Part shown: positions 41,175-64,000 of the stretch, in pieces
Position numbering within the stretch: position 1 is the stretch's first letter
How the letters are laid out: every line of letters starts with the position of its first letter
Virus record (IMG/VR): IMGVR_UViG_3300037189_012019
Location: 1 to 64,000 of that record
DNA from: a virus
Strand: one strand, 5' to 3'
Length of the DNA: 64,000 nt
Notes under the pieces: model-generated
Told to the model about the DNA's origin: nothing
Database searches by the model: none
The model's input: the letters and a program-made list of their open reading frames with translations, nothing else
Program-made: the position numbers and the translations under genes

Positions 41175-41205
41175 GTTAGACGATGCCAAAGTTGGGTCGT
41201 CTAAC
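41175..41205 (+). repeat. Inverted repeat at Hsp20 transcription start
   Basis: GTTAGACGA (41175-41183) and TCGTCTAAC (41197-41205), a perfect 9-bp repeat spanning predicted +1. It could be an operator or a 5' mRNA stem. The AGAAGGAG ribosome-binding site lies outside it. Confidence 0.7.
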
Positions 41206-41232
41206 TTACTCGCTTTTAGAAGGAGAAACAAA

Positions 41233-41718: not shown

Positions 41719-41724
41719 TAAATG

Positions 41725-48644: not shown

Positions 48645-48668
48645 CACTGTAAAAAACTATGTTATAGT
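48641..48668 (+). promoter_or_regulatory. Sigma70-type promoter, predicted leaderless (UV endonuclease)
   Basis: TTGACA (48641-48646), 16-nt spacer, TATAGT (48663-48668); ATG 48675 is 7 nt after the -10 box. Confidence 0.75.
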
Positions 48669-48674
48669 GGTAAT

Positions 48675-50085: not shown

Positions 50086-50107
50086 TATTAAAAAGGAAAA
50101 ATACATA

Positions 50108-51199
50108 ATGAGTTATCTGTTTACTAGTGAAAGCGTAAGTGAAGGACATCCAGATAAGGTCGCTGATGCAATCAGTGATGCGATTCTGGATTTGATGATG
50201 GCACCACAGGATAAATCTTATCGGTGTGCGTGTGAAACACTTGTTACTACTAATCAAGTGGTAATCGCAGGTGAATATAAAGGCGAACTTGATCCACAAT
50301 TAGTTGATGCCGCTGTTATCAATACTATTAAAGATATTGGTTACGAGCAAAATGGATTTAATTGGCGCACGGTCAATATTCTTAATCTAATGCATGGACA
50401 AAGTGCTGATATTGCACTTGGCACTGATACATTTGGTGCTGGTGACCAAGGCTTAATGTTTGGTTATGCTTCTAATGAAACACCAAACTTCATGCCAAGT
50501 GCTATTCATTACAGCCATGAAGTTGTAAAGGCACTTGCTGAACATCGTAAAAGCGGTCGTGATTGGCTTGGTCCAGATGCCAAAAGCCAAATTACTGTTG
50601 AATACAATGATGATAATCTTCCTTATCGTATTGACAAGGTAGTTTGTTCCACGCAACACAGTGAAGATACTGATATGTATGCGGTTCGCACACGAGTAGA
50701 ACAACTTATTCGTAGTGTTCTTCCTGACCGCTTAGTTGATACTCGCACAGAGTTTCATATCAATCCTACTGGACGCTTTGTTATTGGTGGTCCAGATGGT
50801 GATACTGGTCTAACTGGTCGTAAGATTATTGTTGATACTTATGGTGGTTATGCTCCACATGGTGGTGGTGCATTTAGTGGTAAAGACCCTACAAAGGTTG
50901 ACCGTTCTGCAGCTTATATGATGCGTTATCTTGCCAAGAATATTGTAGCAAGTGGTCGTGCAGATTGGGCAACAGTTCAGGTATCTTATGCTATTGGTCT
51001 TGAACAACCAATGAGTTTCTATGTTGAAAGCAATGGCGATAGTCGTGGTTTGACAAAATGGATACGTGATAATGTTGATCTAACACCACTTGGTATTATC
51101 AATAAGTTTGACCTGTTCCGTCCTATCTATAGTTCTACTACAAACTATGGTCACTTTGGTAAGGATGGATTGCCATGGGAAACTGTTGATCTTTTCTAA
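50108..51199 (+). CDS. metK: S-adenosylmethionine synthetase
   Basis: 363 residues with FTSESVSEGHPDK (ATP/Met site), GAGDQGLMFGYA, GGPDGDTGLTGRKI, and GGGAFSGKDPTKVDRSAAY, all canonical MetK blocks. It makes SAM from methionine and ATP. A phage copy would feed its two radical SAM enzymes (4862, 10086) or DNA methylation. AAAAAGGAAAAAT precedes the ATG. Confidence 0.95.
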   Translation: MSYLFTSESVSEGHPDKVADAISDAILDLMMAPQDKSYRCACETLVTTNQVVIAGEYKGELDPQLVDAAVINTIKDIGYEQNGFNWRTVNILNLMHGQSADIALGTDTFGAGDQGLMFGYASNETPNFMPSAIHYSHEVVKALAEHRKSGRDWLGPDAKSQITVEYNDDNLPYRIDKVVCSTQHSEDTDMYAVRTRVEQLIRSVLPDRLVDTRTEFHINPTGRFVIGGPDGDTGLTGRKIIVDTYGGYAPHGGGAFSGKDPTKVDRSAAYMMRYLAKNIVASGRADWATVQVSYAIGLEQPMSFYVESNGDSRGLTKWIRDNVDLTPLGIINKFDLFRPIYSSTTNYGHFGKDGLPWETVDLF

Positions 51200-51208
51200 A
51201 ATAATATA

Positions 51209-51237
51209 TTGACATAATTGTTGCACTGCGGTATAAA
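51209..51237 (+). promoter_or_regulatory. Sigma70 promoter overlapping late promoter
   Basis: TTGACA (51209-51214), 17-nt spacer, TATAAA (51232-51237), which is also part of the late box at 51232-51239. Confidence 0.75.
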
Positions 51238-51251
51238 TATATGCAGTGCAA
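51221..51251 (+). repeat. Inverted repeat around late promoter
   Basis: TTGCACTGC (51221-51229) and GCAGTGCAA (51243-51251) perfectly flank TATAAATA; the AAGGAAG ribosome-binding site starts at 51253. TTGCACTGC also occurs at 13130. Confidence 0.75.
51232..51239 (+). promoter_or_regulatory. T4 late promoter, exact consensus
   Basis: TATAAATA; predicted +1 near 51245, inside the 3' arm of the inverted repeat. Confidence 0.75.
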
Positions 51252-51264
51252 TAAGGAAGTAAAA

Positions 51265-51636
51265 ATGTGGCCTTACACAAACGAAGAAGCGGATACGCTT
51301 TACAACATAGAAAAGGATAAAGAAATGTTTAACAATGCGGATGAATTTATTGATACAGTACAAAAAGCAAAGAAAGATTGGGTAAAGATGTTTGTTTATA
51401 GTGATAATGTTTCAAAGACTATGAATGAATTTATTGATGCTCAAACAACTTATACAAAAGAAGCAGTAAAGGCAACATCAGCCGCAGCTGGTACAATTGC
51501 AAGCGAAATCCAAAAGACTGCTGATCAGATTTACAGTGGCAAGCATTTCAAGAAGATGCAAGAACAGGTTAGTAATGACCTTTACAGCACTTTCTGGAAA
51601 GAAGCATTTAAATATTATACTCCAAGCTACAAATAA
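51265..51636 (+). CDS. Phasin-like helical protein
   Basis: About 123 residues from ATG 51265 (MWPY), after AAGGAAG. NEFIDAQTTYTKEAVKATSAAAGTIASEIQK has the amphipathic helical, Ala/Thr-rich pattern of phasin-type granule proteins. No charged catalytic motif. An alternative is a generic helical virion protein. The dual promoter suggests expression through infection. The function in a phage is unclear. Confidence 0.4.
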   Translation: MWPYTNEEADTLYNIEKDKEMFNNADEFIDTVQKAKKDWVKMFVYSDNVSKTMNEFIDAQTTYTKEAVKATSAAAGTIASEIQKTADQIYSGKHFKKMQEQVSNDLYSTFWKEAFKYYTPSYK

Positions 51637-51639
51637 TAC

Positions 51640-51670
51640 TTGACAAGTATTTTGTTTTATGGCATACTAT
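51640..51670 (+). promoter_or_regulatory. Sigma70-like promoter
   Basis: TTGACA (51640-51645) and CATACT/TACTAT (51663-51670) with 17 or 19 nt spacing; AAGGAG precedes ATG 51703. Confidence 0.6.
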
Positions 51671-51702
51671 AGAACGTAAATAGTAATACCAAGGAGATAT
51701 CA

Positions 51703-52098
51703 ATGGGAACTATTCTCGTTCTACTAGTAGTGGCCGCTGGAGTTGCATTAATTTACAAACTCTTAAGTCACAAAGATGATGCTTCTGAACAATCTGAAAC
51801 TTTAAAAGTTGATGAAATTGTTGAGCAAGCAGCAAAGAAGGAACCACCAAAGTGTGGTTGTGGTCGCAGTTCAACTGGTTATTGTGTTGGATTGCATAAG
51901 TTGAGTGATGCTGAATGGGCTATAAGCGATAAGAACCCAAACCGTGTTGAAGTTGCACCAGTAGTTGTAACTGCCGATACACCAAGCACCACCACCGAAG
52001 CCGCATCTGCCCCAAAGAAGGCACGTGCCGCAAAGCCAAAAAAAGCGACAGAAGCCGCTGAAAAGCCTAAAAAGCCCAAGGCTAAAAAAGCAAAGTAA
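51703..52098 (+). CDS. Membrane-anchored CDGSH-like Fe-S protein
   Basis: 131 residues: an N-terminal membrane helix (ILVLLVVAAGVALIYKL), a CGCGRSSTGYCVGLHKL motif (residues about 50-66) resembling the C-x-C-x2-S...C-x3-H ligand set of CDGSH iron-sulfur proteins with one residue fewer, and a Lys/Ala-rich tail (KKATEAAEKPKKPKAKKAK). CDGSH proteins bind 2Fe-2S clusters. The membrane anchor plus basic tail is unusual. A strong terminator follows. Confidence 0.55.
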   Translation: MGTILVLLVVAAGVALIYKLLSHKDDASEQSETLKVDEIVEQAAKKEPPKCGCGRSSTGYCVGLHKLSDAEWAISDKNPNRVEVAPVVVTADTPSTTTEAASAPKKARAAKPKKATEAAEKPKKPKAKKAK

Positions 52099-52100
52099 TT

Positions 52101-52125
52101 AAAAGACCGCTTCGGCGGTCTTTTT
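52101..52125 (+). terminator. Intrinsic terminator with TTCG loop
   Basis: AAAAGACCGC, TTCG loop, GCGGTCTTTTT; 10-bp stem and T-run. Confidence 0.92.
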
Positions 52126-52154
52126 CTTTGACGTTTTTATGAAGCGTCCTTTAG

Positions 52155-52161
52155 GTAAATA
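52155..52161 (+). promoter_or_regulatory. T4-type late promoter
   Basis: GTAAATATT; predicted +1 near 52167, with AAAAGGAG before ATG 52199. Confidence 0.6.
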
Positions 52162-52198
52162 TTGGTGCAGCGTATTTCACACTCAAAAGGAGACATAG

Positions 52199-53134
52199 AT
52201 GGCAGCACCTACATTAGATTCATTACAAGCTGAAATAAACGATATAAAAGCAAAATTATGTGCAGTTGGAACAATTTTAAGTGATTATTGCACATTTGTT
52301 CCTAAAGTAGAAATACCAAAAGACCCATTTTTACATCTTGATGGTTCAAAATATAATGGCACTGGTAATTGGATTGATCAAACAGGTCGTGGTTTAGATG
52401 CTGTTCCCGTAGCAGCGACAAACACTCCAACTTATGATGCAGTAAATAAATGTTTCAATTTTGACGTTGTTAATCATAACGCATTTAAAATTGATACAAA
52501 GAAGCATGTTACCAGTATACCTGGTATGAGTGCAGCTGACTTTGCTAAAATGAGTGATCCTAACGGAACACAACAATTAGGTTATCAGTTAAATGCTAAG
52601 AAGCCTCGTACCTTTGCAACATGGGTAAAGTTTAAACCATTTGGACAATCAGTTATTCCTGGATACGGTAAAATTGTTAGTCAGTATGTTCTCGGTTTTG
52701 GCCGTAATGAATCAGGTTATCTATACTCATTAGGTAGTACTTGGGATGCTCGTCCAATGCTATACAATGGTAACTATGATGGCTGGACTTCATTTACAGA
52801 TCCTCAAGTAGGAACTAATAATTACCAAAAACAAGAAATGTCAACAGCATTTGTTGATCAATGGATATTGATGGTTGCTACATTTGATGGCACAACCAAC
52901 ACAATTTATATTGACGATGGTGAAACTAAACAGTCATGGGTTCCAAGAACACAACTTAATACAATACCAGACTTATTCTATATTGGTCGTCAACCAGTAA
53001 CTACTAATACAGAAGCAAAGTTTAACGAAAGTTTAACTGGTTCTGTTGGTATGGTAACTGTCTATAACAGAGCCTTGACCGTAGAGGAAGTTAAGCAGTA
53101 TTTTGAAGCTACCAAGGCAACTTATAAGAAATAA
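52199..53134 (+). CDS. LamG/concanavalin-like virion protein
   Basis: 311 residues: a short helical N-terminus, then a jelly-roll pattern with GTGNWIDQTGRGLDA, FATWVKFKPFG and a final WILMVATFDGTTNTIYIDDGE and GSVGMVTVYNRALTVEEV, the typical end of LamG/concanavalin-A-like lectin domains. It likely binds carbohydrate on the host or decorates the head. Monocistronic: late promoter before, terminator after. Confidence 0.75.
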   Translation: MAAPTLDSLQAEINDIKAKLCAVGTILSDYCTFVPKVEIPKDPFLHLDGSKYNGTGNWIDQTGRGLDAVPVAATNTPTYDAVNKCFNFDVVNHNAFKIDTKKHVTSIPGMSAADFAKMSDPNGTQQLGYQLNAKKPRTFATWVKFKPFGQSVIPGYGKIVSQYVLGFGRNESGYLYSLGSTWDARPMLYNGNYDGWTSFTDPQVGTNNYQKQEMSTAFVDQWILMVATFDGTTNTIYIDDGETKQSWVPRTQLNTIPDLFYIGRQPVTTNTEAKFNESLTGSVGMVTVYNRALTVEEVKQYFEATKATYKK

Positions 53135-53160
53135 TATATTATATAATTGCTAACCCATTG

Positions 53161-53191
53161 AAAAAGCACCGTTTTTTACGGTGCTTTTTTT
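53161..53191 (+). terminator. Intrinsic terminator
   Basis: AAAAAGCACCG (53161-53171), 7-nt loop, CGGTGCTTTTT plus T-run; 11-bp stem. Confidence 0.95.
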
Positions 53192-53193
53192 GC

Positions 53194-53221
53194 TTGACAG
53201 ACCCCAAATATATGATATTAT
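53194..53221 (+). promoter_or_regulatory. Sigma70-type promoter
   Basis: TTGACA (53194-53199), 16-nt spacer, TATTAT (53216-53221); GGAG then ATG 53251. Confidence 0.75.
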
Positions 53222-53250
53222 AAGTCATAGATTGTTGATGGAGAAACAAT

Positions 53251-53487
53251 ATGACTGACACTGATTTTGCCATGTTTGGTATGTCCAAAGCCGATATCCG
53301 TGACCAATATATCAATAATATTACCGCCAAGTTGTCAGGTTTGGAAATGGTTGTTATGGGTATTTTGAGCGATTGCCAAGAAATGCAGAACTACGGCGTC
53401 GATACCAAAGAACGCATCCGCAAACAGATGAATATCGCCAAGTTTATTCTTGCCGAAATGATGCAAGAAAAACGTCAAGCGGCTTGA
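53251..53487 (+). CDS. Small hypothetical early protein
   Basis: 78 residues, helical, with a Cys and several Met (MVVMGILSDCQEMQ). It begins an early operon of three small genes, at sigma70-like promoter 53194. Function unknown. Confidence 0.6.
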   Translation: MTDTDFAMFGMSKADIRDQYINNITAKLSGLEMVVMGILSDCQEMQNYGVDTKERIRKQMNIAKFILAEMMQEKRQAA

Positions 53488-53497
53488 TAGGTGCGAT

Positions 53498-53842
53498 ATG
53501 AACGTTACAGTCCAAAACACCCTTTATGGTCGTAAAACCAAAATTGTGTATAGTGGTGAGGAAATGCCACTTCCTAAATGGGTAGATTATCCTGCCATCG
53601 CATTATCAACGGGTGATCGCCAATTTCCTGTTCGTATCATCGCACGTGAGCATATTACTAAAATTGACAATGAACTTGTTGAACAAAAGTTTGTTGCTGA
53701 ACCTGTTGCAAAACGCACGATTAAAGTTAGTGGTAGCAAAGGTAACACATATCTTGTAACCATTGATGGTAAGTATAAATCTTGCACTTGCAGTGGTTTT
53801 CAATTTCGTCGCAACTGTCGTCATGTCGTAGAGGCTGCATAA
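53498..53842 (+). CDS. SWIM-type zinc-finger protein
   Basis: 114 residues; the C-terminus has KSCTCSGFQFRRNCRHVVE, the CxCxnCxH SWIM zinc-binding motif, preceded by a strand-rich segment with YLVTIDGK. SWIM domains bind DNA or proteins. Its stop overlaps the next start (TAATG). Confidence 0.7.
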   Translation: MNVTVQNTLYGRKTKIVYSGEEMPLPKWVDYPAIALSTGDRQFPVRIIAREHITKIDNELVEQKFVAEPVAKRTIKVSGSKGNTYLVTIDGKYKSCTCSGFQFRRNCRHVVEAA

Positions 53843-54069
53843 TGTCCGAAGTTATCGATTGTTCAAATAAATTCAAACATCTTAAAATTCTTAATCATAT
53901 TAAGCGTATTATTGCTAATACTGATTATGCTGATTATGTAAGTGCAGTGACTTATCCTGATGAACGCCAAGAAAGTGGTCTTGGCGTTGCTATTGTTACC
54001 ACTGATGGTACATCAAAACTGCTTGATTTGCGTGAATATGATATTGAAAAAATTTATAATATTAAATAA
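53842..54069 (+). CDS. Small hypothetical protein
   Basis: 75 residues from ATG 53842 in a TAATG overlap. An alternative upstream start lies in the SWIM gene. The end is alpha/beta (GLGVAIVTTDGTSKLLDL). Unknown function, in the same early operon. Confidence 0.5.
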   Translation: MSEVIDCSNKFKHLKILNHIKRIIANTDYADYVSAVTYPDERQESGLGVAIVTTDGTSKLLDLREYDIEKIYNIK

Positions 54070-54073
54070 AAAA

Positions 54074-55030
54074 ATGAAAAAATTTATAAAATTTGATTCA
54101 AAAATTTCATCTTTTGAAACTGTATGTTTTTACTCTAATAAAAATTATCAATTTGTTAATTTTAGTGAAGAATATAAAATTAAAGATGAAGATATTTTAG
54201 TATTAACTCTTAACTCTAAAAATTTTTCTTTAGATTTAAAAAACGAACCTTACCGTATTCAAAAAATTATAGAAAAATATCCAAATAATTTTATTTTTTA
54301 TGATTTAATTGGTGAAGAAGATTTTAATATTAAGATTGAACATAGTAATTTGTATTTTCTTTATGGAAATTACCCATCAATCAAAAAACAAAATTATTTT
54401 TATTTTCCTTTTTACTGGTGGTTGATTGAGTCAATTTGTAAAAAAACTTATATACCTCAAAAAAACTACGAGAAAAAGTTTTTAATGCCAGTTGCACAAT
54501 ATAAAAAATGGAGAGAAAGATTTATCCACTATATGACATTTTATTTAAAAGATGCAATTTATAGTCAAGTATACAAAAAAATATATCTTCCCAATGATGG
54601 ATCTAATAATAGTTTTAATGATAGATTTTTTAATCCAAGTTGGTATGATTCTACATTTTTTTCGTTAGTTCTTGAAACAAATATAAACAATAACTCAATT
54701 TTTATAACGGAAAAAACATTTAAACCAATACAATATTTTCATCCATACATGGTTATGGGTTCGAAAAATTCTCTTAAACTTATGAAGGATTGGGGCTTCC
54801 AAACCTTTGAAAATTTATTTGATGAATCATATGATGAAGAAGAAGATTTTATTAAAAAAGTTAAAATTATACAAGATAATATTGAAAACTTTAATTATTC
54901 ACCATATGATTCTATAACAAAAGAAAAACTAGAATTAAATTATAATAATTTCTATCAAAAAAAACAAATAAATCAATATTCAGAAAATGTGTTTTTTCCA
55001 GAAATAGAAAAAGTTATTAATTCTCAATAA
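54074..55030 (+). CDS. Putative glycosyltransferase-like protein
   Basis: About 318 residues from ATG 54074, markedly richer in Lys/Asn/Phe than its neighbours. The C-terminal FITEKTFKPIQYFHPYMVMGS block resembles the acceptor/donor motif of GT10-like and phage glycosyltransferase-like families (EKtfKPi). No DxD is obvious. It converges with the next gene by 14 nt. Its composition suggests recent acquisition. Confidence 0.45.
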   Translation: MKKFIKFDSKISSFETVCFYSNKNYQFVNFSEEYKIKDEDILVLTLNSKNFSLDLKNEPYRIQKIIEKYPNNFIFYDLIGEEDFNIKIEHSNLYFLYGNYPSIKKQNYFYFPFYWWLIESICKKTYIPQKNYEKKFLMPVAQYKKWRERFIHYMTFYLKDAIYSQVYKKIYLPNDGSNNSFNDRFFNPSWYDSTFFSLVLETNINNNSIFITEKTFKPIQYFHPYMVMGSKNSLKLMKDWGFQTFENLFDESYDEEEDFIKKVKIIQDNIENFNYSPYDSITKEKLELNYNNFYQKKQINQYSENVFFPEIEKVINSQ

Positions 55031-55751
55031 AGGTTCCGTTTGGTGCTACGTGTCCACGAACACCTGTGCGATCAAATTCAATGATTGCATCACGAGGTAA
55101 AAACTTATGCCAAAGATGTTCTATATCAATATATCCACCAACGCTTACACGTTCTTGCATATGGTTAATCATATCTTCAAGAAGCATTAAAAATTCACGT
55201 TGACGGTTTGCACCAAAGCTATAAACACGTAACATATATTGTTGGTCAATACCAGTGATACCGTGAGCAAACTGACTTAACAAGCGTTTGCTTACAACAT
55301 ATTTGTCACCAATTATATCATTTTCATAATCTTTAGTATTAAAGCGGTCAGTGAGTGTGTAACGACCACTTACTTTAAAAATGCGGTCGCAACCATCAAA
55401 CCAACCTTCTTCAAGTGCATATGTGAAAAAGCTACGAACTACACACATTTCAGTAAGATTTTTTACAATATCCTGAACTTGAATATTTTTATGAATTTCA
55501 ACAACATTATCATCAAGACTAAAATCAATAAAATGATCTACATCTTTTGTTAATGTTTCAATTTGTTCATCAGTCAAGCCAGGAATACCACAATCTGTTA
55601 AACAAATAACAGCATTTGGAATACGTTCACGAACACTTGCAATAGTTTCAAGTGTTTGTTCTAGTCGCTCTGCTGGACTATAAAGTGAAAACTTTGCATT
55701 AATTGCACTGGTGATAAAAACACCATATTTCTTTTCTTTTTTCTTAGACAT
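55017..55751 (-). CDS. Putative glycan-related protein
   Basis: 244 residues with VICLTDCGIPGLTDEQI and DRIFKVSGRYTLTDRF, a FKxSGRYxL pattern I associate with glycosyltransferase-like proteins encoded beside sugar dehydratases. It lies head-to-tail with the epimerase on the minus strand (8-nt overlap), so both likely work on the same sugar. Confidence 0.45.
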   Translation of the reverse strand: MSKKKEKKYGVFITSAINAKFSLYSPAERLEQTLETIASVRERIPNAVICLTDCGIPGLTDEQIETLTKDVDHFIDFSLDDNVVEIHKNIQVQDIVKNLTEMCVVRSFFTYALEEGWFDGCDRIFKVSGRYTLTDRFNTKDYENDIIGDKYVVSKRLLSQFAHGITGIDQQYMLRVYSFGANRQREFLMLLEDMINHMQERVSVGGYIDIEHLWHKFLPRDAIIEFDRTGVRGHVAPNGTFIEN

Positions 55752-56778
55752 CTAAGTTCAACCAATCTGGACGAGCAAGGGTCCAATCTACAACTTGTTT
55801 AATACGTTCTGTAAGTTCAATAGTAGGTTCCCAACCAAGGTTCTTCATAAACTCACCGCTAAGTGCGTAACGAAGATCATGACCAGGACGGCTGCTATGG
55901 AAGTCAACCATTTCATAGTTAAGGGGTTTGCCTTGACTATCGGCAATAATCTGTGCTAGTTCTAGGTTATTGATTTCCTGTTTACCTACAATGTTGAACT
56001 TTGGACATTTTGCACCACCAAACTCTGGTGGCATTACAAAATCCTTAAGACCAAGAATAAACATAAGTGCACTGGCAACATCCTTGGCATGAATATAGTG
56101 ACGTGAACCAGGAATAGTGCGAGTTCTATCACTATGAACTGTAATAGTTTCACCATCACGAGCTTTGCGGATACACATAGGAATAAACTTCTCTGGATGC
56201 TGACGCTCACCAAATACGTTCATGGTATGTGTCACATAAACTGGAAGACCATAAGTGTTTTCATAACATACTGCTAATTCTTCACCGCCAGCCTTGGTAG
56301 CACTATATGGATTACCGCTGTTATAGCGATCATACTCACCATAGTTTACGCCATGCGGTGCAGGACCAAATACTTCATCAGTTGAGAAATATACAAAACG
56401 TTCTAAATTATCACATTTACGAGCAAATTCAAGAATATTACAAGTTCCAACAACATTATCAAGAACGAACTCCATAGGGTAATCAATACTACGATCAACG
56501 TGAGAACCAGCGGCCAAGTGAAGAATAATATCAACAGGACCGATACGAGTTTTAGTAAGAGGGTTAATTTCTGCTTTGAGATCATGAAATATTACCTTTA
56601 CACGTTTTTGTGTTTGTGGATCATGATCTTGCATCATATCATGCAGACGATTTAGGTTACCGCTAAAGTCCAAGCGGTCAAGACTGACAATATTCCAATC
56701 TGTAGTTTTAAGGATATGATCAATAACATGGTGTGCAATAAATCCTGCGCCGCCAGTAATAAGAACGTTCTTTGACAT
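55744..56778 (-). CDS. dTDP-glucose 4,6-dehydratase-like NAD epimerase/dehydratase
   Basis: 344 residues of the extended SDR family: TGGAGFI (NAD-binding), HLAAGSHVD, FSTDEVFG and YSATKAGGEE with the YxxxK active site, plus the RHYIHAKDVASAL block. Highest resemblance is to RfbB-type 4,6-dehydratases. It would make a dTDP- or GDP-linked deoxysugar precursor. A GGAG site precedes the ATG. Operon mate: the 244-residue gene downstream. Confidence 0.8.
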   Translation of the reverse strand: MSKNVLITGGAGFIAHHVIDHILKTTDWNIVSLDRLDFSGNLNRLHDMMQDHDPQTQKRVKVIFHDLKAEINPLTKTRIGPVDIILHLAAGSHVDRSIDYPMEFVLDNVVGTCNILEFARKCDNLERFVYFSTDEVFGPAPHGVNYGEYDRYNSGNPYSATKAGGEELAVCYENTYGLPVYVTHTMNVFGERQHPEKFIPMCIRKARDGETITVHSDRTRTIPGSRHYIHAKDVASALMFILGLKDFVMPPEFGGAKCPKFNIVGKQEINNLELAQIIADSQGKPLNYEMVDFHSSRPGHDLRYALSGEFMKNLGWEPTIELTERIKQVVDWTLARPDWLNLDV

Positions 56779-56816
56779 ATTTTCTCCGTGTATTTTAATA
56801 ATATATAGGATATTTC

Positions 56817-56845
56817 TTGACAGGTCAATAATTTAATGCTAAATT
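56817..56845 (+). promoter_or_regulatory. Sigma70-type promoter (tRNA-Gln)
   Basis: TTGACA (56817-56822), 17-nt spacer, TAAATT (56840-56845); the tRNA starts 12 nt downstream. Confidence 0.75.
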
Positions 56846-56856
56846 ATAAAAACGAT

Positions 56857-56932
56857 TGGGGAGTGGTGGAATTGGCAACACGCTTGACTTTGACTCAAGA
56901 GATTCCAGGTTCGATCCCTGGCTCCCCAGCCA
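56857..56932 (+). tRNA. tRNA-Gln (anticodon TTG), encoded CCA
   Basis: Acceptor TGGGGAG/CTCCCCA with a U1-A72 type pair, anticodon stem CTTGA/TCAAG and loop CTTTGAC (anticodon TTG), T-arm loop TTCGATC, then G-CCA. It reads CAA codons. Confidence 0.93.
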
Positions 56933-56942
56933 GCCAGCCTAA

Positions 56943-56950
56943 AATAAATA
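56943..56950 (+). promoter_or_regulatory. T4-type late promoter (curli-like operon)
   Basis: AATAAATA; predicted +1 at 56956, one base from the second ATG (56955) of the CHAP gene. Confidence 0.5.
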
Positions 56951-56951
56951 T

Positions 56952-57482
56952 ATGATGAAAAGATTATTAGCAATAATTGGTATTTGTCTAATACCTTTCA
57001 ATAGTGCAAGCGCATTTGAATTAACGATTCCATTTAATTGGGACTCCAATGGTTTAACATTTGGTGAAACACGTGGTGATATAATGCAAATAGCCATGAA
57101 TTATAATGGTTATGATGCAAAAAAGAATCGTAAAGAATTACAAGCCATATTAGATATTGATCCTGTAAAAATTCCTTGGTGTGCTGGTTTTATAAACTAT
57201 GTATTAGAACGTGCTGGTTATGATTCCACTGGTAATTTAAGTGCAGCAAGTTATCATAACTACGGAATAAAAGTTACAGACCCCCAACCAGGCGATATTG
57301 TCTTAATGCGCCGTAGCGGTGGAAGTGGTCGCCATGTCGCTTTCTTTTATGGTTGGACATTTGATAATGGTATAAAGTATGTTCAACTTCTTGGTGGAAA
57401 CCAAGACGACAGTGTTAACATAAGCGCATATCCTGTAGCATCAATAGTTGAATTTCGCAGACCTATAAAGAAATTGTCTTAA
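56952..57482 (+). CDS. Secreted CHAP/NlpC-type peptidase
   Basis: 176 residues. Signal peptide (about 1-22, ending NSASA), then PWCAGFINYVLERAGY (catalytic Cys) and GRHVAFFYG (catalytic His), the CHAP-type amidase/peptidase pattern. It would cut peptide cross-links in the periplasm, either for lysis or to clear space for CsgG-like pores next to it. Two ATGs (56952, 56955) are possible. First gene of the late operon. Confidence 0.8.
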   Translation: MMKRLLAIIGICLIPFNSASAFELTIPFNWDSNGLTFGETRGDIMQIAMNYNGYDAKKNRKELQAILDIDPVKIPWCAGFINYVLERAGYDSTGNLSAASYHNYGIKVTDPQPGDIVLMRRSGGSGRHVAFFYGWTFDNGIKYVQLLGGNQDDSVNISAYPVASIVEFRRPIKKLS

Positions 57483-57493
57483 TATTATTAAAA

Positions 57494-57522
57494 AATCCTC
57501 ATAATAAATAAAAAAGAGGATT
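57494..57522 (+). repeat. RBS-masking hairpin with nested late promoter (csgF)
   Basis: AATCCTC (57494-57500)/GAGGATT (57516-57522). The late box AATAAATA lies in the loop and the GAGG of the 3' arm is the csgF ribosome-binding site. Confidence 0.75.
57503..57510 (+). promoter_or_regulatory. T4-type late promoter in hairpin loop
   Basis: AATAAATA; predicted +1 at 57516, the first base of the hairpin's 3' arm. Confidence 0.6.
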
Positions 57523-57525
57523 AAT

Positions 57526-57975
57526 ATGCGTAAAATTGTGCCTTTTTTCATCACTGGAATGATGTTTTCTACACCTGTCTTTGCAAGTGGAATGGTTTTT
57601 GGTTTTAAAAATCCAGAGTTTAGCGGCGATGGTTACAGTAGTCATGCACTGACTATTGAAAATGAAGAATACACTCGTCGTAAAGCACGTGAAGCAGAAG
57701 AAAAAGCTGCAAAAGAAGCAGCTGAATCAAAGGCAAATAACACAAATTTAAATAAGTTTCTCAACAATCTGGAAAGCCGTATCTATGCACAATTAAGTTT
57801 GCAATTAAGCAATGCTATGTTTGCTGATGGGGCAACCACTGGTACAATGCAGTTTGAGGGTAGCACTTTAACATGGTTAAAAGATACTGTTAACCAAACT
57901 ATTACTCTTACTGTCATTGATGCTACTGGTAATCGGACTGATGTCACAGTTCCAATAGGGAGTTTCAAGTTCTAA
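57526..57975 (+). CDS. csgF: CsgF-like curli assembly protein
   Basis: 149 residues. Signal peptide ends TPVFA; the mature start SGMVFGFKNPEFSG matches the CsgF N-terminus (GTMTFQFRNPNFGG type) that plugs into the CsgG pore. Then a helical Ala/Glu stretch and the C-terminal LNNLESRIYAQLSLQLSNA and TLTVIDATGNRTDVTVPIG beta region as in CsgF. In bacteria it couples secreted curlin to the surface. Overlaps csgG (TAATG). Confidence 0.8.
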   Translation: MRKIVPFFITGMMFSTPVFASGMVFGFKNPEFSGDGYSSHALTIENEEYTRRKAREAEEKAAKEAAESKANNTNLNKFLNNLESRIYAQLSLQLSNAMFADGATTGTMQFEGSTLTWLKDTVNQTITLTVIDATGNRTDVTVPIGSFKF

Positions 57976-58784
57976 TGCGTAAGATAGTATTTTCAATTAT
58001 GGCAATGATGTTAGCTGGTTGTAATACAACCATACCATATGAGGCAAAGGTTCCTGAAAAGGCTACGCCCATGCCACAAATAATTAAAAAAAGTACATAT
58101 AATGAATTATCAAGTATGCCACCACCAGCGGGTCCACCTATCACTATTGCCATGTATGGTTTTAATGATAAGACTGGACAACGTAAAGAAAATGACAAAT
58201 TTAGTGTATTAAGCAGTGCAGTAACACAAGGTGGTGAAGTATTTTTAATTAAAGCATTGCAAGATGCTGGTCGTGGTAAATGGTTTCAAGTTGTAGAACG
58301 TGTGGGTTTAGATGATCTTATTAAAGAACGTCAACTTATTCGTAATCAACGTGAAACTTATGAAGGTAAAGATGCAAAACCATTATCACCAATGCTTATT
58401 GCTGGTGTAATGGTAGAAGGTGGTATCGTAGGTTACGATACGAATGTTCAAAGTGGTGGTGCAGGAGCTGCCATGTTAGGTATTGGAATAAGTCAACAAT
58501 ATAGAACTGATGTAGTCACAGTTGTTTTACGATTAATCAGTGTTCATACAGGTGAAGTCCTTGTAAGTGCTGGTGCCACAAAAACTATTTTAAGCACTGG
58601 TGGAAATGGAAATGCACTAACATTTCTTGACCAAGGAACTATGAGTATTCAATTAGAAGCAGGTGCAAATGTCAACGAACCCACCACATATGCTGTGCGT
58701 CTGGCAACAGAAGCAGCCGTTGTGGATATGATCAAACAGGGTGCAAATAAAGGTTTATGGGGTTTTGCTTCCGATAAAAAGTAA
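57975..58784 (+). CDS. csgG: CsgG-like outer-membrane curli secretion channel
   Basis: 269 residues. Lipobox MLAGCN, then the CsgG core with VVERVGLDDLIKERQ, the diagnostic GGIVGYDTNVQSGGAGAAMLGIG and QYRTDVVTVVLRLISV and a SAGATKTILST strand. CsgG forms a nonameric lipoprotein pore that exports curlin subunits. A phage copy with its own csgF and two curlin-like genes forms a compact export cassette. No CsgE or CsgC is present. Confidence 0.9.
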   Translation: MRKIVFSIMAMMLAGCNTTIPYEAKVPEKATPMPQIIKKSTYNELSSMPPPAGPPITIAMYGFNDKTGQRKENDKFSVLSSAVTQGGEVFLIKALQDAGRGKWFQVVERVGLDDLIKERQLIRNQRETYEGKDAKPLSPMLIAGVMVEGGIVGYDTNVQSGGAGAAMLGIGISQQYRTDVVTVVLRLISVHTGEVLVSAGATKTILSTGGNGNALTFLDQGTMSIQLEAGANVNEPTTYAVRLATEAAVVDMIKQGANKGLWGFASDKK

Positions 58785-58789
58785 GCAAT

Positions 58790-58803
58790 ACTCCTAAAGG
58801 AGT
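58790..58803 (+). promoter_or_regulatory. RBS hairpin of curlin gene
   Basis: ACTCC, TAAA loop, GGAGT sequesters the AAAGGAG ribosome-binding site ahead of the TTG start; the csgG stop at 58784 lies 6 nt upstream, so terminating ribosomes could open it. Confidence 0.6.
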
Positions 58804-58809
58804 AGGCAT

Positions 58810-59496
58810 TTGAATAAGGTATTAAGAACAGCATTAATGGCTGTTGGGTTGCTGTATGCAAGCAATGTGTTTGCAGGTACAACCAATAACGTGTATATCG
58901 ACCAAGTTGGTAGTGGAAGCACTATCGGCATCACTCAAACAGGTAGTGGTAATGAAGTCGGTAATGACACGACTCGTGCCACTTTTAATGGTAATACGCA
59001 AACTGTAAGCATTGATCAAGTAGGAAGCCAAAATACACATAATGTTAATATGCAAGGTGCAAGTAGTAGTTTAAACAGCACTGTAACTGGTGATAGCAAC
59101 ACTGTGAATGTTGCTTGCGGTGCCGCACCAACAACAACTTGTACTGATACAAGCATTACTGCAAACGCAACTGGTAGTGGAAATACATTAAGTGTGACTG
59201 CAAGTGCAAAAAGCACTATGGGTATTGCTGTAACTGGTGACAATAATAATGCAAGTATCAACAGTAGCACTACTAATATGTTAGGTGCAAAGGCTGATAT
59301 TAAAGCAACTGGTGACAGTAATGTAGTAAGCGTTCAACAAAGTGGTCCTGCTGGCGCTACTGGTTTTGATGCAAAAGTTGATGTAACAGGTAGTTCAAAT
59401 AACGTTGGAGTGACACAAGGTGGCACAATCGATAGTAAAGTTGATATCAAGAGCAACGGTTCTAACAACAGTATTACTGTTAACAGCAGTAACTGA
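58810..59496 (+). CDS. Curlin-like amyloid subunit
   Basis: 228 residues from TTG. Signal peptide ends ASNVFA. The mature protein has repeats of the curlin type (YIDQVGSGSTIGITQTGSGNEV, SIDQVGSQNTHNVNMQG) with Gln/Asn ladders, then degenerate Thr/Asn/Ser-rich repeats. Role: amyloid-like subunit exported by CsgG. Overlaps the FecR gene by 77 nt in another frame. Confidence 0.75.
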   Translation: MNKVLRTALMAVGLLYASNVFAGTTNNVYIDQVGSGSTIGITQTGSGNEVGNDTTRATFNGNTQTVSIDQVGSQNTHNVNMQGASSSLNSTVTGDSNTVNVACGAAPTTTCTDTSITANATGSGNTLSVTASAKSTMGIAVTGDNNNASINSSTTNMLGAKADIKATGDSNVVSVQQSGPAGATGFDAKVDVTGSSNNVGVTQGGTIDSKVDIKSNGSNNSITVNSSN

Positions 59497-60538
59497 TTGT
59501 TGGGCGGCTGTTGGTAAAGTAACTGAACAAACTGGACCAACTGAAATTCAACGAGATAAAGAAAGTATACCAAGTGCGGTGAACAGCGGCGTTGAAATGA
59601 ATGATGCCGTTGTCACCGCTCGTGCACGTGTAGGTATTACTTTCGAAGATGATACCAAAGTGCAAATCACTGAACAAAGTAAACTTGTAATTGATGACTT
59701 TGTATATGATCCAAATAATGCAAGTGCAAGCAAACTTGGTATTAAAGTTGCTATTGGAACTGCAACCTATGCCAGTGGACAAATAGCAAAAGAAAATCCA
59801 CAGCAAGTTAAAATTGAAACACCAACTGCTGTCATTGGTGTTCGTGGAACTGACTTTAGTATGACAGTTGATGAATTAGGTCGCAGTCTTGTAGTTCTGT
59901 TGCCAAGCTGTCCTGTAGGTTACAAAAATATTGAAAAAGATTGTGTTACTGGAAAGATTGATGTCACTACTGATATGGGTACAGTTCATCTTGATAAACC
60001 ATTTCAAGCAACAACTACAAGTGCAAAAGAACAGAATCCAACTAAACCCGTTATACTTGTGTTAAATCAAGAACAAATTAATAATATGTTAATTTTAACC
60101 CCACCAAAGAAATCAGCAGAAAATGAAACAACACAAAAAACTGCACTTGATATTAATTTTCTTGATAAAGATTTTCTAAAGTTTGATGAACTTGATATGA
60201 ATTATCTTATGGGATTCAACAAACTTGATATTAACCAACTTGATTCTGTATTATTGGTAAATCAACTTGACTTGCTAAATGCTGCACTACTTGAAAGTAT
60301 GTTGGGTGGTGAAAATCAAATGTTGCCAAATTATAAACCTAATAAAGCTGCTGGTTTATTATATTATAAACAAGACCAAACCGTTGTGCTATATCGTGTT
60401 GGCGCAAATAGTTTTAGCCAAATTGGAGTTGATAAGGATAGTGCAACAACTATACAATTAACACAAGATGGAACTACACTTATTCAAAATGTTCAACATG
60501 CTGGCGGTAGCTTGATAAGGATTGCACAATCACAATGA
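59420..60538 (+). CDS. Secreted FecR-domain protein
   Basis: 372 residues. A signal-like N-terminus (hydrophobic TVLTTVLLLTAVTDCWA) encoded inside the curlin 3' end, then a FecR fold with PTAVIGVRGTDFSM; the C-terminal half has LD-rich repeats (DINFLDKDFLKFDELDMNYL). FecR domains are usually sigma-factor signalling parts, but secreted FecR proteins also exist. Its place between two curlins suggests a nucleator, scaffold or partner. Confidence 0.75.
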   Translation: MAQSIVKLISRATVLTTVLLLTAVTDCWAAVGKVTEQTGPTEIQRDKESIPSAVNSGVEMNDAVVTARARVGITFEDDTKVQITEQSKLVIDDFVYDPNNASASKLGIKVAIGTATYASGQIAKENPQQVKIETPTAVIGVRGTDFSMTVDELGRSLVVLLPSCPVGYKNIEKDCVTGKIDVTTDMGTVHLDKPFQATTTSAKEQNPTKPVILVLNQEQINNMLILTPPKKSAENETTQKTALDINFLDKDFLKFDELDMNYLMGFNKLDINQLDSVLLVNQLDLLNAALLESMLGGENQMLPNYKPNKAAGLLYYKQDQTVVLYRVGANSFSQIGVDKDSATTIQLTQDGTTLIQNVQHAGGSLIRIAQSQ

Positions 60539-61065
60539 AAAAATTATTATTCTTACTAATGATTACCACACCTTGTTACGCAGGCAGTGTTTATATTGAT
60601 CAAGTTGGAAATGGAAATATTTTTTACCTAGACCAAAGTTCAAGTGGAAATAGTGAAGCAATTCTACTAAACAAAGGCGATAGTAATAATCATACAATAG
60701 TTCAAGAAGGAAGCGGAGATCATCTTGCTTTTATTGGAACACCACCAGTAGGAAAAAATTATGATGGGACTTACAATACTAATACAAATGCTTCAAATAA
60801 CAATAACAACACACTTACTATTTTACAAAATGGTAGCGGTAATCATACTGCCGCCATTAATTTGGATGCTACAACACAAAACAACAATAATAATGCAAGT
60901 ATTACCCAAACTGGCGATGCTAATAAAAGTTTTGTTCTTAATTTGAGTGGTAGTGATATTGGTGCAACTGTTGTGCAAGATAACCTTAATACACCAGATA
61001 GTAGCAATATGAATATACAATGTTTAACTCCTCCTTGTAGTGGTTATTCTTATACTAAACACTAA
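60535..61065 (+). CDS. Second curlin-like subunit
   Basis: 176 residues. Signal peptide (ends TPCYA), mature start SVYIDQVGNGNIFYLDQSSSG, further Gln/Asn repeats (TILQNGSGNHTAAINLD, SITQTGDANKS) and a Cys-containing tail. Could be the nucleating (CsgB-like) or minor subunit. It overlaps the FecR gene by 4 nt. Confidence 0.75.
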   Translation: MKKLLFLLMITTPCYAGSVYIDQVGNGNIFYLDQSSSGNSEAILLNKGDSNNHTIVQEGSGDHLAFIGTPPVGKNYDGTYNTNTNASNNNNNTLTILQNGSGNHTAAINLDATTQNNNNNASITQTGDANKSFVLNLSGSDIGATVVQDNLNTPDSSNMNIQCLTPPCSGYSYTKH

Positions 61066-61096
61066 AAAGCATCATAAAACTTACATAAATGGTCAG

Positions 61097-61103
61097 GTAA
61101 ATA
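61097..61103 (+). promoter_or_regulatory. T4-type late promoter (plcP-agt)
   Basis: GTAAATATT; predicted +1 at 61109, one base from ATG 61110. Confidence 0.55.
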
Positions 61104-61109
61104 TTTTAT

Positions 61110-61859
61110 ATGAATTATTATCGTAGTGTCTTTATAAGCGATGTGCATTTAGGCACTCGTATGAGTCAAGCAAATGATTTGCTTGAATTTATTAAAACTT
61201 TTGAGTGTGAACGTCTGTATCTTGTTGGTGACATAATTGATGGTTGGGCAATGGCTAAAAGTTTTTACTGGCCGCAACATCATAATGATGTAATCCAAAA
61301 ACTTATGCGTTTGGCAAGAAAAGGCGTTCAAGTCTATTATTTGCCAGGAAATCACGATGAATTTTTACGAACATTTGGAGAGTATAGCTTTGGTAATATT
61401 TGTCTCGTGGATAATATTACACATGCCAGCTTAGATGGTAAAAAATATATTGTTATGCATGGAGACCAGTTTGATGTTGTTATTAAAAATATGAAATGGT
61501 TAAGTCATATTGGTAGTTGGGCATATGATTTAACAATTGCATTAAATGTTGTTATAGCAAGAATTAGAAATTTATTTAAGTTACCATATTGGAGTTTAAG
61601 TGCTTGGGCAAAATATAAAGTTAAAAAGGCAGTAAACTTTATTGGTGATTTTGAAGATAATCTTGCTAGTTTTGCGAGAACACGTGGTGCAAATGGAATT
61701 ATATGCGGACATATACATCACGCAAATATACGTGAAATAGGTGATATAAAATATATGAATTGCGGTGATTGGGTTGAAAGTTGCACAGCATTAGTTGAAG
61801 ATTATAATGGTCATTGGTTTATAATTAAATATAAAAATGCGAATCTCACTGGTAACTGA
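61110..61859 (+). CDS. plcP: PlcP-type phospholipase C metallophosphoesterase
   Basis: 249 residues of the COG2908 (LpxH-like) family: ISDVHLGTR, VGDIIDGW, LPGNHDEF, HGDQFD and CGHIHHA metal-binding blocks. The KSFYWPQHHNDVIQKLMR segment matches my recollection of the alphaproteobacterial PlcP subtype, which releases diacylglycerol from phospholipids. It overlaps the next glycosyltransferase by 23 nt. The pair is the plcP-agt lipid-remodelling order known from phosphorus-limited marine bacteria. LpxH itself remains an alternative. Confidence 0.7.
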   Translation: MNYYRSVFISDVHLGTRMSQANDLLEFIKTFECERLYLVGDIIDGWAMAKSFYWPQHHNDVIQKLMRLARKGVQVYYLPGNHDEFLRTFGEYSFGNICLVDNITHASLDGKKYIVMHGDQFDVVIKNMKWLSHIGSWAYDLTIALNVVIARIRNLFKLPYWSLSAWAKYKVKKAVNFIGDFEDNLASFARTRGANGIICGHIHHANIREIGDIKYMNCGDWVESCTALVEDYNGHWFIIKYKNANLTGN

Positions 61860-62838
61860 TACATACGCACCAAGTGTAAATGGTGTTGTTACAACTCTTA
61901 TAAACACTGTTGCAGAGTTAGAACGACTTGGACATATAGTTCAGGTTATTGAACCTAGTCAATTTAAGACTGTGCCAGCGCCAGGTTATCCAGAAATAAA
62001 ACTTACACTTAATATTTGGCGTGTTGGTCCCATGATTGAATCGTTTAAGCCAGATGCTATTCATATTGCTACAGAGGGTCCATTAGGATTTGCCGCACGT
62101 TGGTATTGCAAAGTAGATAAGCGCAGTATTCCACATAACACAAGTTATCATACAAAATTTCCAGAATACTTTAACAAATATTTTAATATACCCGTAGATT
62201 GGGGTTATTGGTTTATTCGTTGGTTTCATAAGTTTAGCACACGGGTTTTAGTTACAAATGAAACTATGCGACAAGAATTACAAGGACGTGGATTTGAACG
62301 TCTTGCTGTATGGAATCGTGGAGTTGATACTAAAATATTTAATCCCAAAAAACGTAAGTCAAATCAAGCAACTAAACCTATATTACTTTGCGTAAGTCGT
62401 GCAAGCATAGAAAAAGGTTTAGATGATTTTTGCAGTCTAAAAACTGACGGAACAAAAATATTAGTTGGTGATGGTCCATACTTGGCAGAATTAAAAAAGA
62501 AATATAACGACGTAATTTTTACAGGTTATAAACATGGTGATGCACTTGCTGAATATTATGCTAACTCAGATGTATTTGTATTTCCAAGTAAGACTGATAC
62601 CTTTGGTGTGGTAATGTTAGAAGCAATGGCATGTGGAACACCAATTGCAGCATATCCAGTTACAGGTCCAACTGATATTATAATAAATGGTGTAAATGGT
62701 GCTATGGATGACAATTTACAAATTGCCATTGAATATGCACTAGACTGTAATCGCAAAAATGTACATAAAATAAGCAAAGATTATACTTGGGAAAAATGCA
62801 CAAATAGTTTTTTAAAAAACTTACAACAAATACATTGA
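61837..62838 (+). CDS. agt: GT4 glycosyltransferase, Agt-like
   Basis: 333 residues: ISLVTDTYAPSVNGVVTTL at the N-terminus, LLCVSRASIEKGLDDF, then GDGPYLAEL and FPSKTDTFGVVMLEAMACGTPIAAY, the GT4 nucleotide-sugar blocks. Beside plcP it is best read as Agt, which glycosylates diacylglycerol to replace phospholipid headgroups. Other GT4 substrates cannot be excluded. Confidence 0.68.
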   Translation: MRISLVTDTYAPSVNGVVTTLINTVAELERLGHIVQVIEPSQFKTVPAPGYPEIKLTLNIWRVGPMIESFKPDAIHIATEGPLGFAARWYCKVDKRSIPHNTSYHTKFPEYFNKYFNIPVDWGYWFIRWFHKFSTRVLVTNETMRQELQGRGFERLAVWNRGVDTKIFNPKKRKSNQATKPILLCVSRASIEKGLDDFCSLKTDGTKILVGDGPYLAELKKKYNDVIFTGYKHGDALAEYYANSDVFVFPSKTDTFGVVMLEAMACGTPIAAYPVTGPTDIIINGVNGAMDDNLQIAIEYALDCNRKNVHKISKDYTWEKCTNSFLKNLQQIH

Positions 62839-62863
62839 CAGCACTAATACAATAATATATAAA
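62835..62863 (+). promoter_or_regulatory. Sigma70-type promoter (structured RNA copy B)
   Basis: TTGACA (62835-62840), 17-nt spacer, TATAAA (62858-62863); predicted +1 at 62870, the first bases of the RNA's outer stem. Confidence 0.8.
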
Positions 62864-62868
62864 GAGAT

Positions 62869-63006
62869 AAGTGCGGCGGCGTGGGCAGGACACGTATTGG
62901 AGTATCGGCATGATGGAAATAAAGGAACTAGAAAGCAAGGGTCTGTTAAATCTGTAGCTTGTTAATACCATCAAATTGTAGGTATAAATCCTACCCGCAC
63001 TTTTTT
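62869..63006 (+). ncRNA. Structured RNA of unknown class (copy B), self-standing transcript
   Basis: Outer stem AAGTGCGG/CCGCACTT (62869-62876/62995-63002), 4-5-bp hairpin CGTG/CACG (62880-62894), a long arm TGATGG/CCATCA (62911-62916/62968-62973) with inner AGCAAG/CTTGTT, and a 5-bp hairpin GTAGG/CCTAC with a 7-nt loop (62978-62994) abutting the outer stem. A T6 run ends it. The promoter places +1 at the outer stem, so the transcript should equal the fold, about 135 nt. Shares plan and motifs with copy A at 44102. No CCA and an over-long third arm argue against a tRNA. Confidence 0.75.
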
Positions 63007-63041
63007 AAAAAAATTAATTTTATTTTTTTATGCAGAGTGTG

Positions 63042-63047
63042 TATAAT
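63042..63047 (+). promoter_or_regulatory. Possible -10 box (GHKL ATPase gene)
   Basis: Perfect TATAAT but a poor -35; leader of about 65 nt to ATG 63118 with AAAAGGA. The stretch 63007-63117 otherwise shows only AT-rich sequence. Confidence 0.4.
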
Positions 63048-63117
63048 AAGTATTATTACCTAAAACATAGTTACCACATAGTTGGTTAGTTTTAAGAACT
63101 TATAAAAGGAAAACATT

Positions 63118-64000
63118 ATGACTGCATTAAACGTTACAAATACGTCTTATCTTATTACTCGTACAATTGAACAAGCCCCAAGTGAAATGATGATACGAGA
63201 ATTAATTCAAAATTCCATTGAAGCATCTATCACAGCAAAAGAACCAAAAATTCAAATACTAGAAACTGATCCTTCTGTTTTTGGATTTAACGAAAATGTT
63301 TTTGGTGATTTTGGTTTTAATATAAAAAAACTTACTTTCTGGAATAATGGCACTGGTATGTCTGCCAAAGAATTGCGAGAAGTTACTAATTTATCATCAT
63401 CACTCAACAAAATTCAACGCCTTGATCAAAATTTTGGTATCGGCGCAAAAGTTACAGCAATGGGTGTAAATCAAGAAGGAATGATTTGGATTTCATGTAA
63501 GAATAAGAAAGTTTCCATTTCACTTTTACGAAAAGAAATTAATAGCAAAGGACAAGCAAATTATTGCCGTTATGATTTTGTAGAAACAGATGGTGAAAGT
63601 CCAACTGGGTATAAGGATGTTTGGGATATTACTGGACTTGCAACAATACCATGGGATACCAATGAAGATTGGACAGCAATTGTGCTTTGTGGTAATAATC
63701 CTAATCAAAATACGGTTGAACGTCCCTATGATGGTGAAGAACAGAAACCTAGTGCATGGTTAATCAATCAAATGTATCGTCGTTTTTTCCGAATTCCAAA
63801 TACCGTCAGTTTGCGATTAGAAGTTGGTTTTTCAAAACATAAACATCTTAATATACGATTCTTAACAATTTTAGAACATATTACACATACTTCTATGTCA
63901 AAACCCGATAAGGTTATTCAAGAATTTGTTAATGACAAAAATGGAAGTGGTATAAAAATTTGGTATGTTTATGATGGTCCAAGTGGTTTTTCAGGATATG
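63118..64000 (+). CDS. GHKL-type (HSP90/MORC-like) ATPase, 3' partial
   Basis: Open from ATG 63118 through the window end with no stop (294 codons visible). MIRELIQNSIEA is the Bergerat N-box (Asn/Glu); FWNNGTGMS takes the place of the usual DxGxG motif, with Asn for Asp; NFGIGAKVTAMG is the G2 loop. GHKL members hydrolyse ATP as chaperones, topoisomerases or defence-related proteins. The missing Asp may change ATP binding. Role in the phage is unknown. Confidence 0.7.
   Translation, partial: MTALNVTNTSYLITRTIEQAPSEMMIRELIQNSIEASITAKEPKIQILETDPSVFGFNENVFGDFGFNIKKLTFWNNGTGMSAKELREVTNLSSSLNKIQRLDQNFGIGAKVTAMGVNQEGMIWISCKNKKVSISLLRKEINSKGQANYCRYDFVETDGESPTGYKDVWDITGLATIPWDTNEDWTAIVLCGNNPNQNTVERPYDGEEQKPSAWLINQMYRRFFRIPNTVSLRLEVGFSKHKHLNIRFLTILEHITHTSMSKPDKVIQEFVNDKNGSGIKIWYVYDGPSGFSGY

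Follow-up and report, generated by a model that had tools for sequence, protein, structure and literature searches.

The 64,000-nucleotide stretch of viral DNA analysed here (the 'window': positions 1 to 64,000 of the 90,241-base virus record IMGVR_UViG_3300037189_012019) carries five tightly packed plus-strand genes at 57526-61065, encoding CsgF, CsgG, a first curlin-repeat protein (curlin 1), a FecR-domain protein and a second curlin-repeat protein (curlin 2). We propose that these genes probably constitute a phage-encoded type VIII (curli-type) secretion module that is used late in infection. As judged from homology, CsgG would form an outer-membrane lipoprotein pore with CsgF as its partner, and the two curlin-repeat proteins are the likely cargo; in the window's own lineage, the sequence ahead of CsgF makes the operon look late-gated by a hairpin switch.

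An earlier note on this DNA had described six open reading frames, the five above plus an upstream CHAP peptidase; all lie at the place it gave, and each scores above the Pfam curated cut-off (Table 1), which bears out the annotation as CsgF, CsgG, two curlin-repeat proteins and a FecR protein. The CsgG profile also matches the solved E. coli CsgG, and the lipobox cysteine is invariant in 15/15 aligned sequences; no PDB sequence was matched by CsgF with phmmer. Curlin 1, as modelled by AlphaFold2 (AF2), is all-beta with 17 regular short strands (predicted local distance difference test, pLDDT, 88.6; predicted template modelling score, pTM, 0.81), and aligns to generic beta-solenoids (VIA-align, Z up to 17.7), solved CsgA not being among the matches listed. 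Curlin 2 matches a curlin-repeat protein of known structure (8c50) and, weakly, CsgA (8enq, 0.028); the signal peptides of both curlins were read by eye. The genes are closely interlocked, the first base of CsgG being the last base of CsgF, and curlin 2 overlapping FecR by 4 nt. A CsgG-family lipoprotein pore, its CsgF partner and curlin-repeat cargo, the ingredients of type VIII secretion, are all encoded, and with them an export channel with its own substrates, as had been claimed.

Table 1. Features of the curli locus and its surroundings (positions are those of the window)
Feature	Position	Strand	Basis and remarks
tRNA-Gln (ttg)	56857..56932	+	ARAGORN and Rfam; at the module edge, not a part of it
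Secreted CHAP / TIGR02594 peptidase, 5′ neighbour	56952..57482	+	Pfam CHAP 9.1e-7; TIGR02594 92.2 bits (cut-off 70.55)
Hairpin AATCCTC / loop / GAGGATT	57494..57522	+	Loop holds late-promoter motif AATAAATA (57503-57510)
CsgF, curli pore partner	57526..57975	+	Pfam 8e-13; signal peptide by eye
CsgG outer-membrane pore lipoprotein, lipobox Cys16	57975..58784	+	Pfam 4.6e-45; PDB CsgG 9.1e-66
Curlin-repeat protein 1, likely fibre subunit, TTG start	58810..59496	+	Pfam Curlin_rpt 8.9e-7; AF2 model
Secreted FecR-domain protein, GTG start	59420..60538	+	Pfam 1.1e-9; overlaps curlin 1 by 77 nt
Curlin-repeat protein 2	60535..61065	+	Pfam Curlin_rpt 3.8e-7, 3 repeats; PDB 8c50 1.2e-15
LpxH-like metallophosphoesterase, neighbour	61110..61859	+	Pfam 6.8e-14; LpxH model 59.2 bits, under cut-off (134)
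GT4 glycosyltransferase, neighbour paired with the phosphoesterase	61837..62838	+	Pfam 2.6e-23; best NCBIfam match a glycolipid synthase, under cut-off

An assembly artefact, which would have undone the claim, is ruled out: 16,026 bases of the window (47975-64000) recur with 100% identity in a viral contig of 338,435 bases (a second record, though not necessarily from an independent sample), and the CsgG family occurs on 100 differently named viral contigs, two isolate phages among them (nine loci that repeat a contig were merged, and near-identical contigs kept apart). All five genes are under purifying selection, with ratios of nonsynonymous to synonymous rates (dN/dS) of 0.03-0.27 in 35/35 gene-pair tests (seven pairs by five genes, curlins included; a number of dS values approach saturation, and the L005 copy of curlin 2 is partial). 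We class the curli-bearing phage as a T4-like jumbo phage because 13 of the 21 proteins tried from phage Melnitz have relatives in the 338 kb contig, including gp23, gp20, gp17, gp18, gp21, gp43, gp41, UvsX, gp46 and gp55; the other eight queries (gp19, gp45, gp33, gp13/14, gp5, gp32, UvsY and GH108) found no match in it.

The gene order recurs widely. We compared 32 viral loci found by a CsgG scan and 80 kept of at least 533 confirmed by a FecR scan; where the contig leaves room, CsgF is present in 94/94, curlin 1 in 91/93 and a curlin-2-like gene in 62/84. Selection by FecR fixes or biases the FecR and cyclase rates of the contigs so chosen, and we use instead the figures free of selection bias: FecR in 21/21 CsgG-selected contigs, and CsgG in 60/60 FecR-selected ones. 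Beyond the window's end, after three more genes, the record encodes at 64985-67096 an adenylate/guanylate cyclase with a CHASE2 sensor (CHASE2 3.6e-37, catalytic domain 2.1e-18). Such a cyclase is present in 11/12 CsgG-selected contigs (L015 is where it was not found), and exactly one CHASE2 protein occurs in each of 14/14 phage records chosen for the module, two of which are the window's phage.

A second companion is a set of small paralogues, each with a single membrane span and a coiled-coil region (topology read from sequence), all nine members scanned belonging to PHROG 18771, a family of unknown function. At least one lies at the module edge in 55/57 contigs, and two or more in 52; in 22 of the 55 the nearer copy precedes CsgF, and in the other 33 it follows FecR on the cyclase side, at distances of up to 2.9 kb. 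In the window's phage the pair sits at record positions 67366-67806 and 69671-69955 (minus strand, open frames). Only 6 of 50,697 phage-collection records hold this family, and the same six hold FecR, the full-length cyclase and CsgG; they amount to two phages, HTVC008M twice and four strains of Melnitz. Three further records hold the catalytic part of the cyclase alone.

For comparison with bacteria, the best 80 of 505 CsgG loci were taken, of which L043, L044 and L045 were set aside as suspected phage (CsgG profile scores of 344, 387 and 317, versus 297 or less in the remaining 77), the first two on that score alone. The phage module is like these bacterial curli operons, the alphaproteobacterial ones included, in that CsgG stands with CsgF (67/77) and curlin-repeat genes (76/77). 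It is unlike them in its other parts: neither the window-type FecR nor the small membrane pair was found in any of the 77 stretches searched (70/77 being at least 10 kb), and the single CHASE2/cyclase-type match (L058) is on the other strand. Co-conservation of the CHASE2 cyclase and the membrane pair suggests that the phages have a dedicated apparatus of their own, and not just a copied bacterial operon. From the bacterial side, 6/33 CHASE2 loci have FecR adjacent (within a flank of about 1 kb; two come from a suspected phage-bearing metagenome-assembled genome, MAG), a figure that is suggestive only. Locus L045 (3911-13367), from a Sphingobacteriales MAG bin, carries the complete module together with the small membrane pair and a gene that by eye resembles a T4-like clamp loader; it is probably phage DNA that was binned with a bacterial genome.

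The earlier note had supposed that an export channel with its own substrates was undescribed in phages. This was wrong, because the module was published for pelagiphages in 2020, and with fibre subunits in 2022. PMC9599517 (2022) describes podo- and myo-pelagiphages that carry CsgF, CsgG, CsgA/B, FecR, another CsgA/B and an adenylate cyclase, preceded by one or sometimes two histidine kinases; the functions it proposes are aggregation, import, or protection from superinfection. Parts of the module are treated in PMC7029224 (2020) and PMC9004378 (2022), which put forward roles in sibling capture and lysis, and further viral genomes with curli genes are noted in PMC7198788 and PMC9636769. The genome annotations of HTVC008M and Melnitz show the same order.

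That published order, with strand and downstream cyclase, is found in the window's phage, whose CsgG is 52% identical to that of HTVC008M and 45% to that of Melnitz; the likeness to Melnitz extends to a transfer-messenger RNA (tmRNA) in the genome. Unlike the pelagiphage module, the one described here sits in a 338 kb T4-like jumbo phage, with CHAP and tRNA-Gln upstream, and with a phosphoesterase, a glycosyltransferase and a HATPase_c_3 protein between curlin 2 and the cyclase. The gene directly upstream of CsgF is CHAP and not the published histidine kinase. We suspect, from their position and shortness, that the small membrane genes are the published upstream kinase gene(s); the nine members scanned hold no kinase domain and no holin in Pfam. 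The HATPase_c_3 protein (L041:2119-3996; 625 aa, GHKL-type, 6.2e-6), which lies between glycosyltransferase and cyclase, was considered for the same part and rejected, having no relative in the other viral loci compared. What we would add to the published module is a candidate late hairpin switch, the CHASE2 sensor on the cyclase, the small membrane pair, and a FecR without an anti-sigma domain; a word check of two main texts found neither CHASE2 nor promoter in PMC9599517, and no hairpin in PMC9004378 (PMC7029224 was outside this check).

As to FecR, its domain shares the fold of the PupR signalling domain (Z 15.5 over 134 residues) and also resembles a cell-surface anchoring domain (5ix9, Z 10.6, 73 residues). 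The model begins with a single signal-peptide-like helix (residues 2-25), with strands from residue 32, in keeping with the secreted protein that had been predicted. Here lies the difference from FecR/PupR cell-surface signalling regulators: the periplasmic FecR domain is present, whereas the N-terminal cytoplasmic anti-sigma domain is not. Because the signal-peptide-like helix stands in for that domain in the model, the phage protein is unlikely to be an iron or sigma regulator; an exported adaptor, possibly partner of the CHASE2 sensor (a pairing that we infer), is a better fit than the iron-dependent regulator proposed in PMC9599517.

The 3′ end of curlin 1 also encodes, in another reading frame, the signal-peptide region of FecR (59420-59496); with each gene taken to begin at the first start codon in its frame, an overlap of 59-80 nt is seen in 56/91 viral loci measured. 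The C-terminus of FecR, which by eye looks curlin-like (Q.G ... GG ... ITI.Q) and has six C-terminal strands in the AF2 model, was tried as a curlin repeat and rejected on sequence: a profile of 1507 bacterial curlin units gave a median of 1.2 bits on 86 FecR tails, with none at 5 bits or more (controls at that level: 28/1720 shuffles and 145/188 viral curlin tails), and Pfam found no curlin repeat in 9 FecR tails.

Turning to timing, CHAP and CsgF are separated by AATCCTC-ATAATAAATAAAAAA-GAGGATT, then AAT and the start ATG, which places the CsgF Shine-Dalgarno sequence in the 3′ arm of a hairpin and a T4-type late-promoter motif, AATAAATA, in its loop. The late-promoter motif and the adjacency of the six genes had been correctly noted; the motif, however, lies after CHAP, and the operon that it could serve starts at CsgF. 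T4 gene e has the same arrangement, a late promoter within the region encoding an RNA hairpin that hides the ribosome site, and there the structure lowers lysozyme synthesis 100-fold (PMC3014915). Motif in the loop and ribosome site in the 3′ arm are both found here, and the 338 kb contig encodes the late sigma factor gp55 (E 5.65e-15; gp33 and gp45 were not found by tblastn with the Melnitz queries). Unlike gene e, the candidate switch stands at a secretion operon, and its arms vary between lineages.

Among 82 distinct CsgF upstreams (L025 left out), TAAATA lies within the last 42 nt of 53, with a loose hairpin round it in 32 and a strict one in 14; shuffled flanks (500 runs) gave a mean of 15.0 and a maximum of 27 for the loose form, and 0.48 and 4 for the strict form, which occurs in 3/1812 other open reading frames. 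Fisher p values (1.6e-17 against those 1812, and 9.8e-9 against the jumbo phage's own frames) are too small, because several hairpin carriers are close relatives. In 12/14 strict hairpins the 3′ arm ends within 8 nt of the start, and eight different arm pairs are seen (L004; L005/L006/L009/L013/L029; L015; L018; L131; L148; L166; L180), with arm cores common to L015 and L131, and likewise to L148 and L166. Strong folds are found in L006 (z -4.8), L018 (z -4.1) and L131 (z -7.0). HTVC008M has the motif TATAAATA before CsgF and a loose hairpin at most. A sigma-70 promoter scan did no better than shuffles (27 versus a mean of 29.3), and a glutamine riboswitch as in Melnitz gave no Rfam match at the gathering threshold within the window.

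Taking these observations together, we suggest the following model. Early read-through RNA would be poorly translated, with the CsgF ribosome site locked in the hairpin; late transcription from the motif in the loop would then yield RNA that lacks the 5′ arm, such that CsgF, CsgG, curlin 1, FecR and curlin 2 could be made. With CsgGF as their way out, the curlins would assemble into amyloid-like fibres on the infected cell, whilst secreted FecR and the CHASE2-sensor cyclase may serve as a periplasm-to-cytoplasm signalling arm, of which the two small inner-membrane coiled-coil proteins are perhaps a part. Maintained fibre subunits, together with an operon that in this lineage looks late, argue against import and early exclusion, and favour fibres located on the dying cell or around it. 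Given working fibres, the likeliest benefit, which we put at a little short of an even chance, is that cells, debris and progeny are held together so that new virions meet hosts. Rather doubtful, as a single joint proposal, is a self-monitoring, late-gated amyloid exporter of a form not found in bacteria, in which hairpin gating is combined with a FecR-CHASE2 cyclase and membrane pair that report on export, thus coupling surface-fibre assembly to the end of infection. The idea that the channel is an exit device for virions is unlikely by pore size, as argued in PMC7029224.

Several observations weigh against a late, fibre-forming secretion module. The locus is known here from sequence and predicted models alone; the curlin 1 model has no Foldseek match in the PDB at E <= 0.001; CsgG also occurs in a seventh, unannotated phage record of 1.5 kb, without the rest of the module; and Melnitz cultures do not clump, according to PMC9004378. 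The window's own hairpin is weak (z -1.62, with 14/200 shuffles as good), and 7/537 jumbo-phage open reading frames outscore CsgF in the hairpin scan (several starts tried per frame), so the hairpin is not unique to the curli operon and looks like a device for several genes. Since the strict hairpin is missing at 68/82 CsgF upstreams, and 29/82, Melnitz among them, have no TAAATA near the start, the late switch is a trait of some lineages.

To these points is added the want of a gate. CsgE is the periplasmic gate of the E. coli system, where it raises export. The earlier note had CsgE, CsgC and CsgD absent; our test covered CsgE, which was found in 0/17 records, the E. coli control being positive. 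Two alphaproteobacterial genomes with CsgFG, within those 17 records, also lack it, and CsgE is therefore not defining outside the E. coli type. An ungated CsgG pore might instead serve for import of nutrients or cofactors, as PMC7029224 and PMC9599517 propose; we hold this to be very unlikely, as import has no need for the curlins or CsgF, yet both are conserved, and FecR lacks the anti-sigma domain.

The main mechanistic rival of capture is control of lysis, in which CsgGF, acting late as a pore or trigger, would depolarise or weaken the envelope along with holin-like small membrane proteins and a lysin, the fibres being secondary. This was proposed for Melnitz (PMC9004378), and the late hairpin arrangement is that of the T4 lysozyme gene (PMC3014915). 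The small membrane family, so constant at the module edge, includes two members, of nine scanned, with a weak resemblance to holins (PHROG 4898, E 0.00068 and 0.0011); this likeness is marginal, however, with the other seven at 0.21 or worse or without a score, the copy of the window's phage at 0.093, and no holin in Pfam. A bare pore would not need the curlins and FecR, which are kept under purifying selection, and the phage has other wall enzymes (SleB-like at 32484-32951, and a lysozyme domain in 28098-31190), whereas CHAP is not conserved at viral curli loci. We consider a lysis device improbable, and prefer secretion of fibres late in infection.

CHAP itself had been read as part of one six-gene unit, in which it would open a path through the wall for the channel. 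It adjoins CsgF, has a signal peptide by eye, and a similar role was suggested for another lysin in Melnitz (PMC9004378). However, CHAP of this family occurs at 1/92 viral curli loci, namely the window's own; the four other relatives found lie on stretches of 8.7-16.5 kb without curli genes; a CHAP domain is found in 4/19 records, two being the window's phage and two having it more than 10 kb from the curli genes; and a separate late-promoter motif stands between CHAP and CsgF. We thus reject CHAP as a part of the module, and regard a six-gene unit as highly improbable. In eight relatives, a protein matching window 55017-55751 (by eye) lies directly upstream of CsgF in place of CHAP. Stretches similar to CHAP were found in 453 phage records, where the annotation is often that of a tail protein or a lysozyme.

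On the other side of the operon, the LpxH-like phosphoesterase and the GT4 glycosyltransferase overlap as a pair, which is also found near curli genes in six more distant viral loci (L184, L186, L187, L192, L193 and L200, some of which look alike), and which we take to resemble a PlcP/Agt-type lipid-remodelling pair; among the papers listed in a literature search, none had phage-encoded PlcP as the subject of its title. Both enzymes could also remodel the envelope, which would suit a coat against superinfection, whereby late fibres mask receptors and keep competing phages from the infected cell or its debris, as proposed in PMC9599517. Exclusion is most useful early, whereas the operon in the window's lineage looks late-gated, and we think such a coat unlikely; it shares the fibre-secretion step with the reading that we prefer, and the two are not mutually exclusive.

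Elsewhere in the window, an alphaproteobacterial-type (permuted) tmRNA is followed by the SleB-like cell wall hydrolase gene (32140-32951 together). A match to the ROSE_3 RNA thermometer (41177-41667; 43.5 bits, cut-off 43) lies directly before, and runs into, an Hsp20 gene (41233-41667), next after which comes a ClpS gene (41722-42048); these suggest phage-borne control of heat shock and proteolysis.

Finally, phage curli modules are widespread, as the number of viral stretches confirmed in the FecR scan attests. If the operon of this lineage does sit behind a hairpin switch of the T4 lysozyme type, its fibres are a feature of the end of infection, and import, exclusion, capture and lysis would then become separable explanations.

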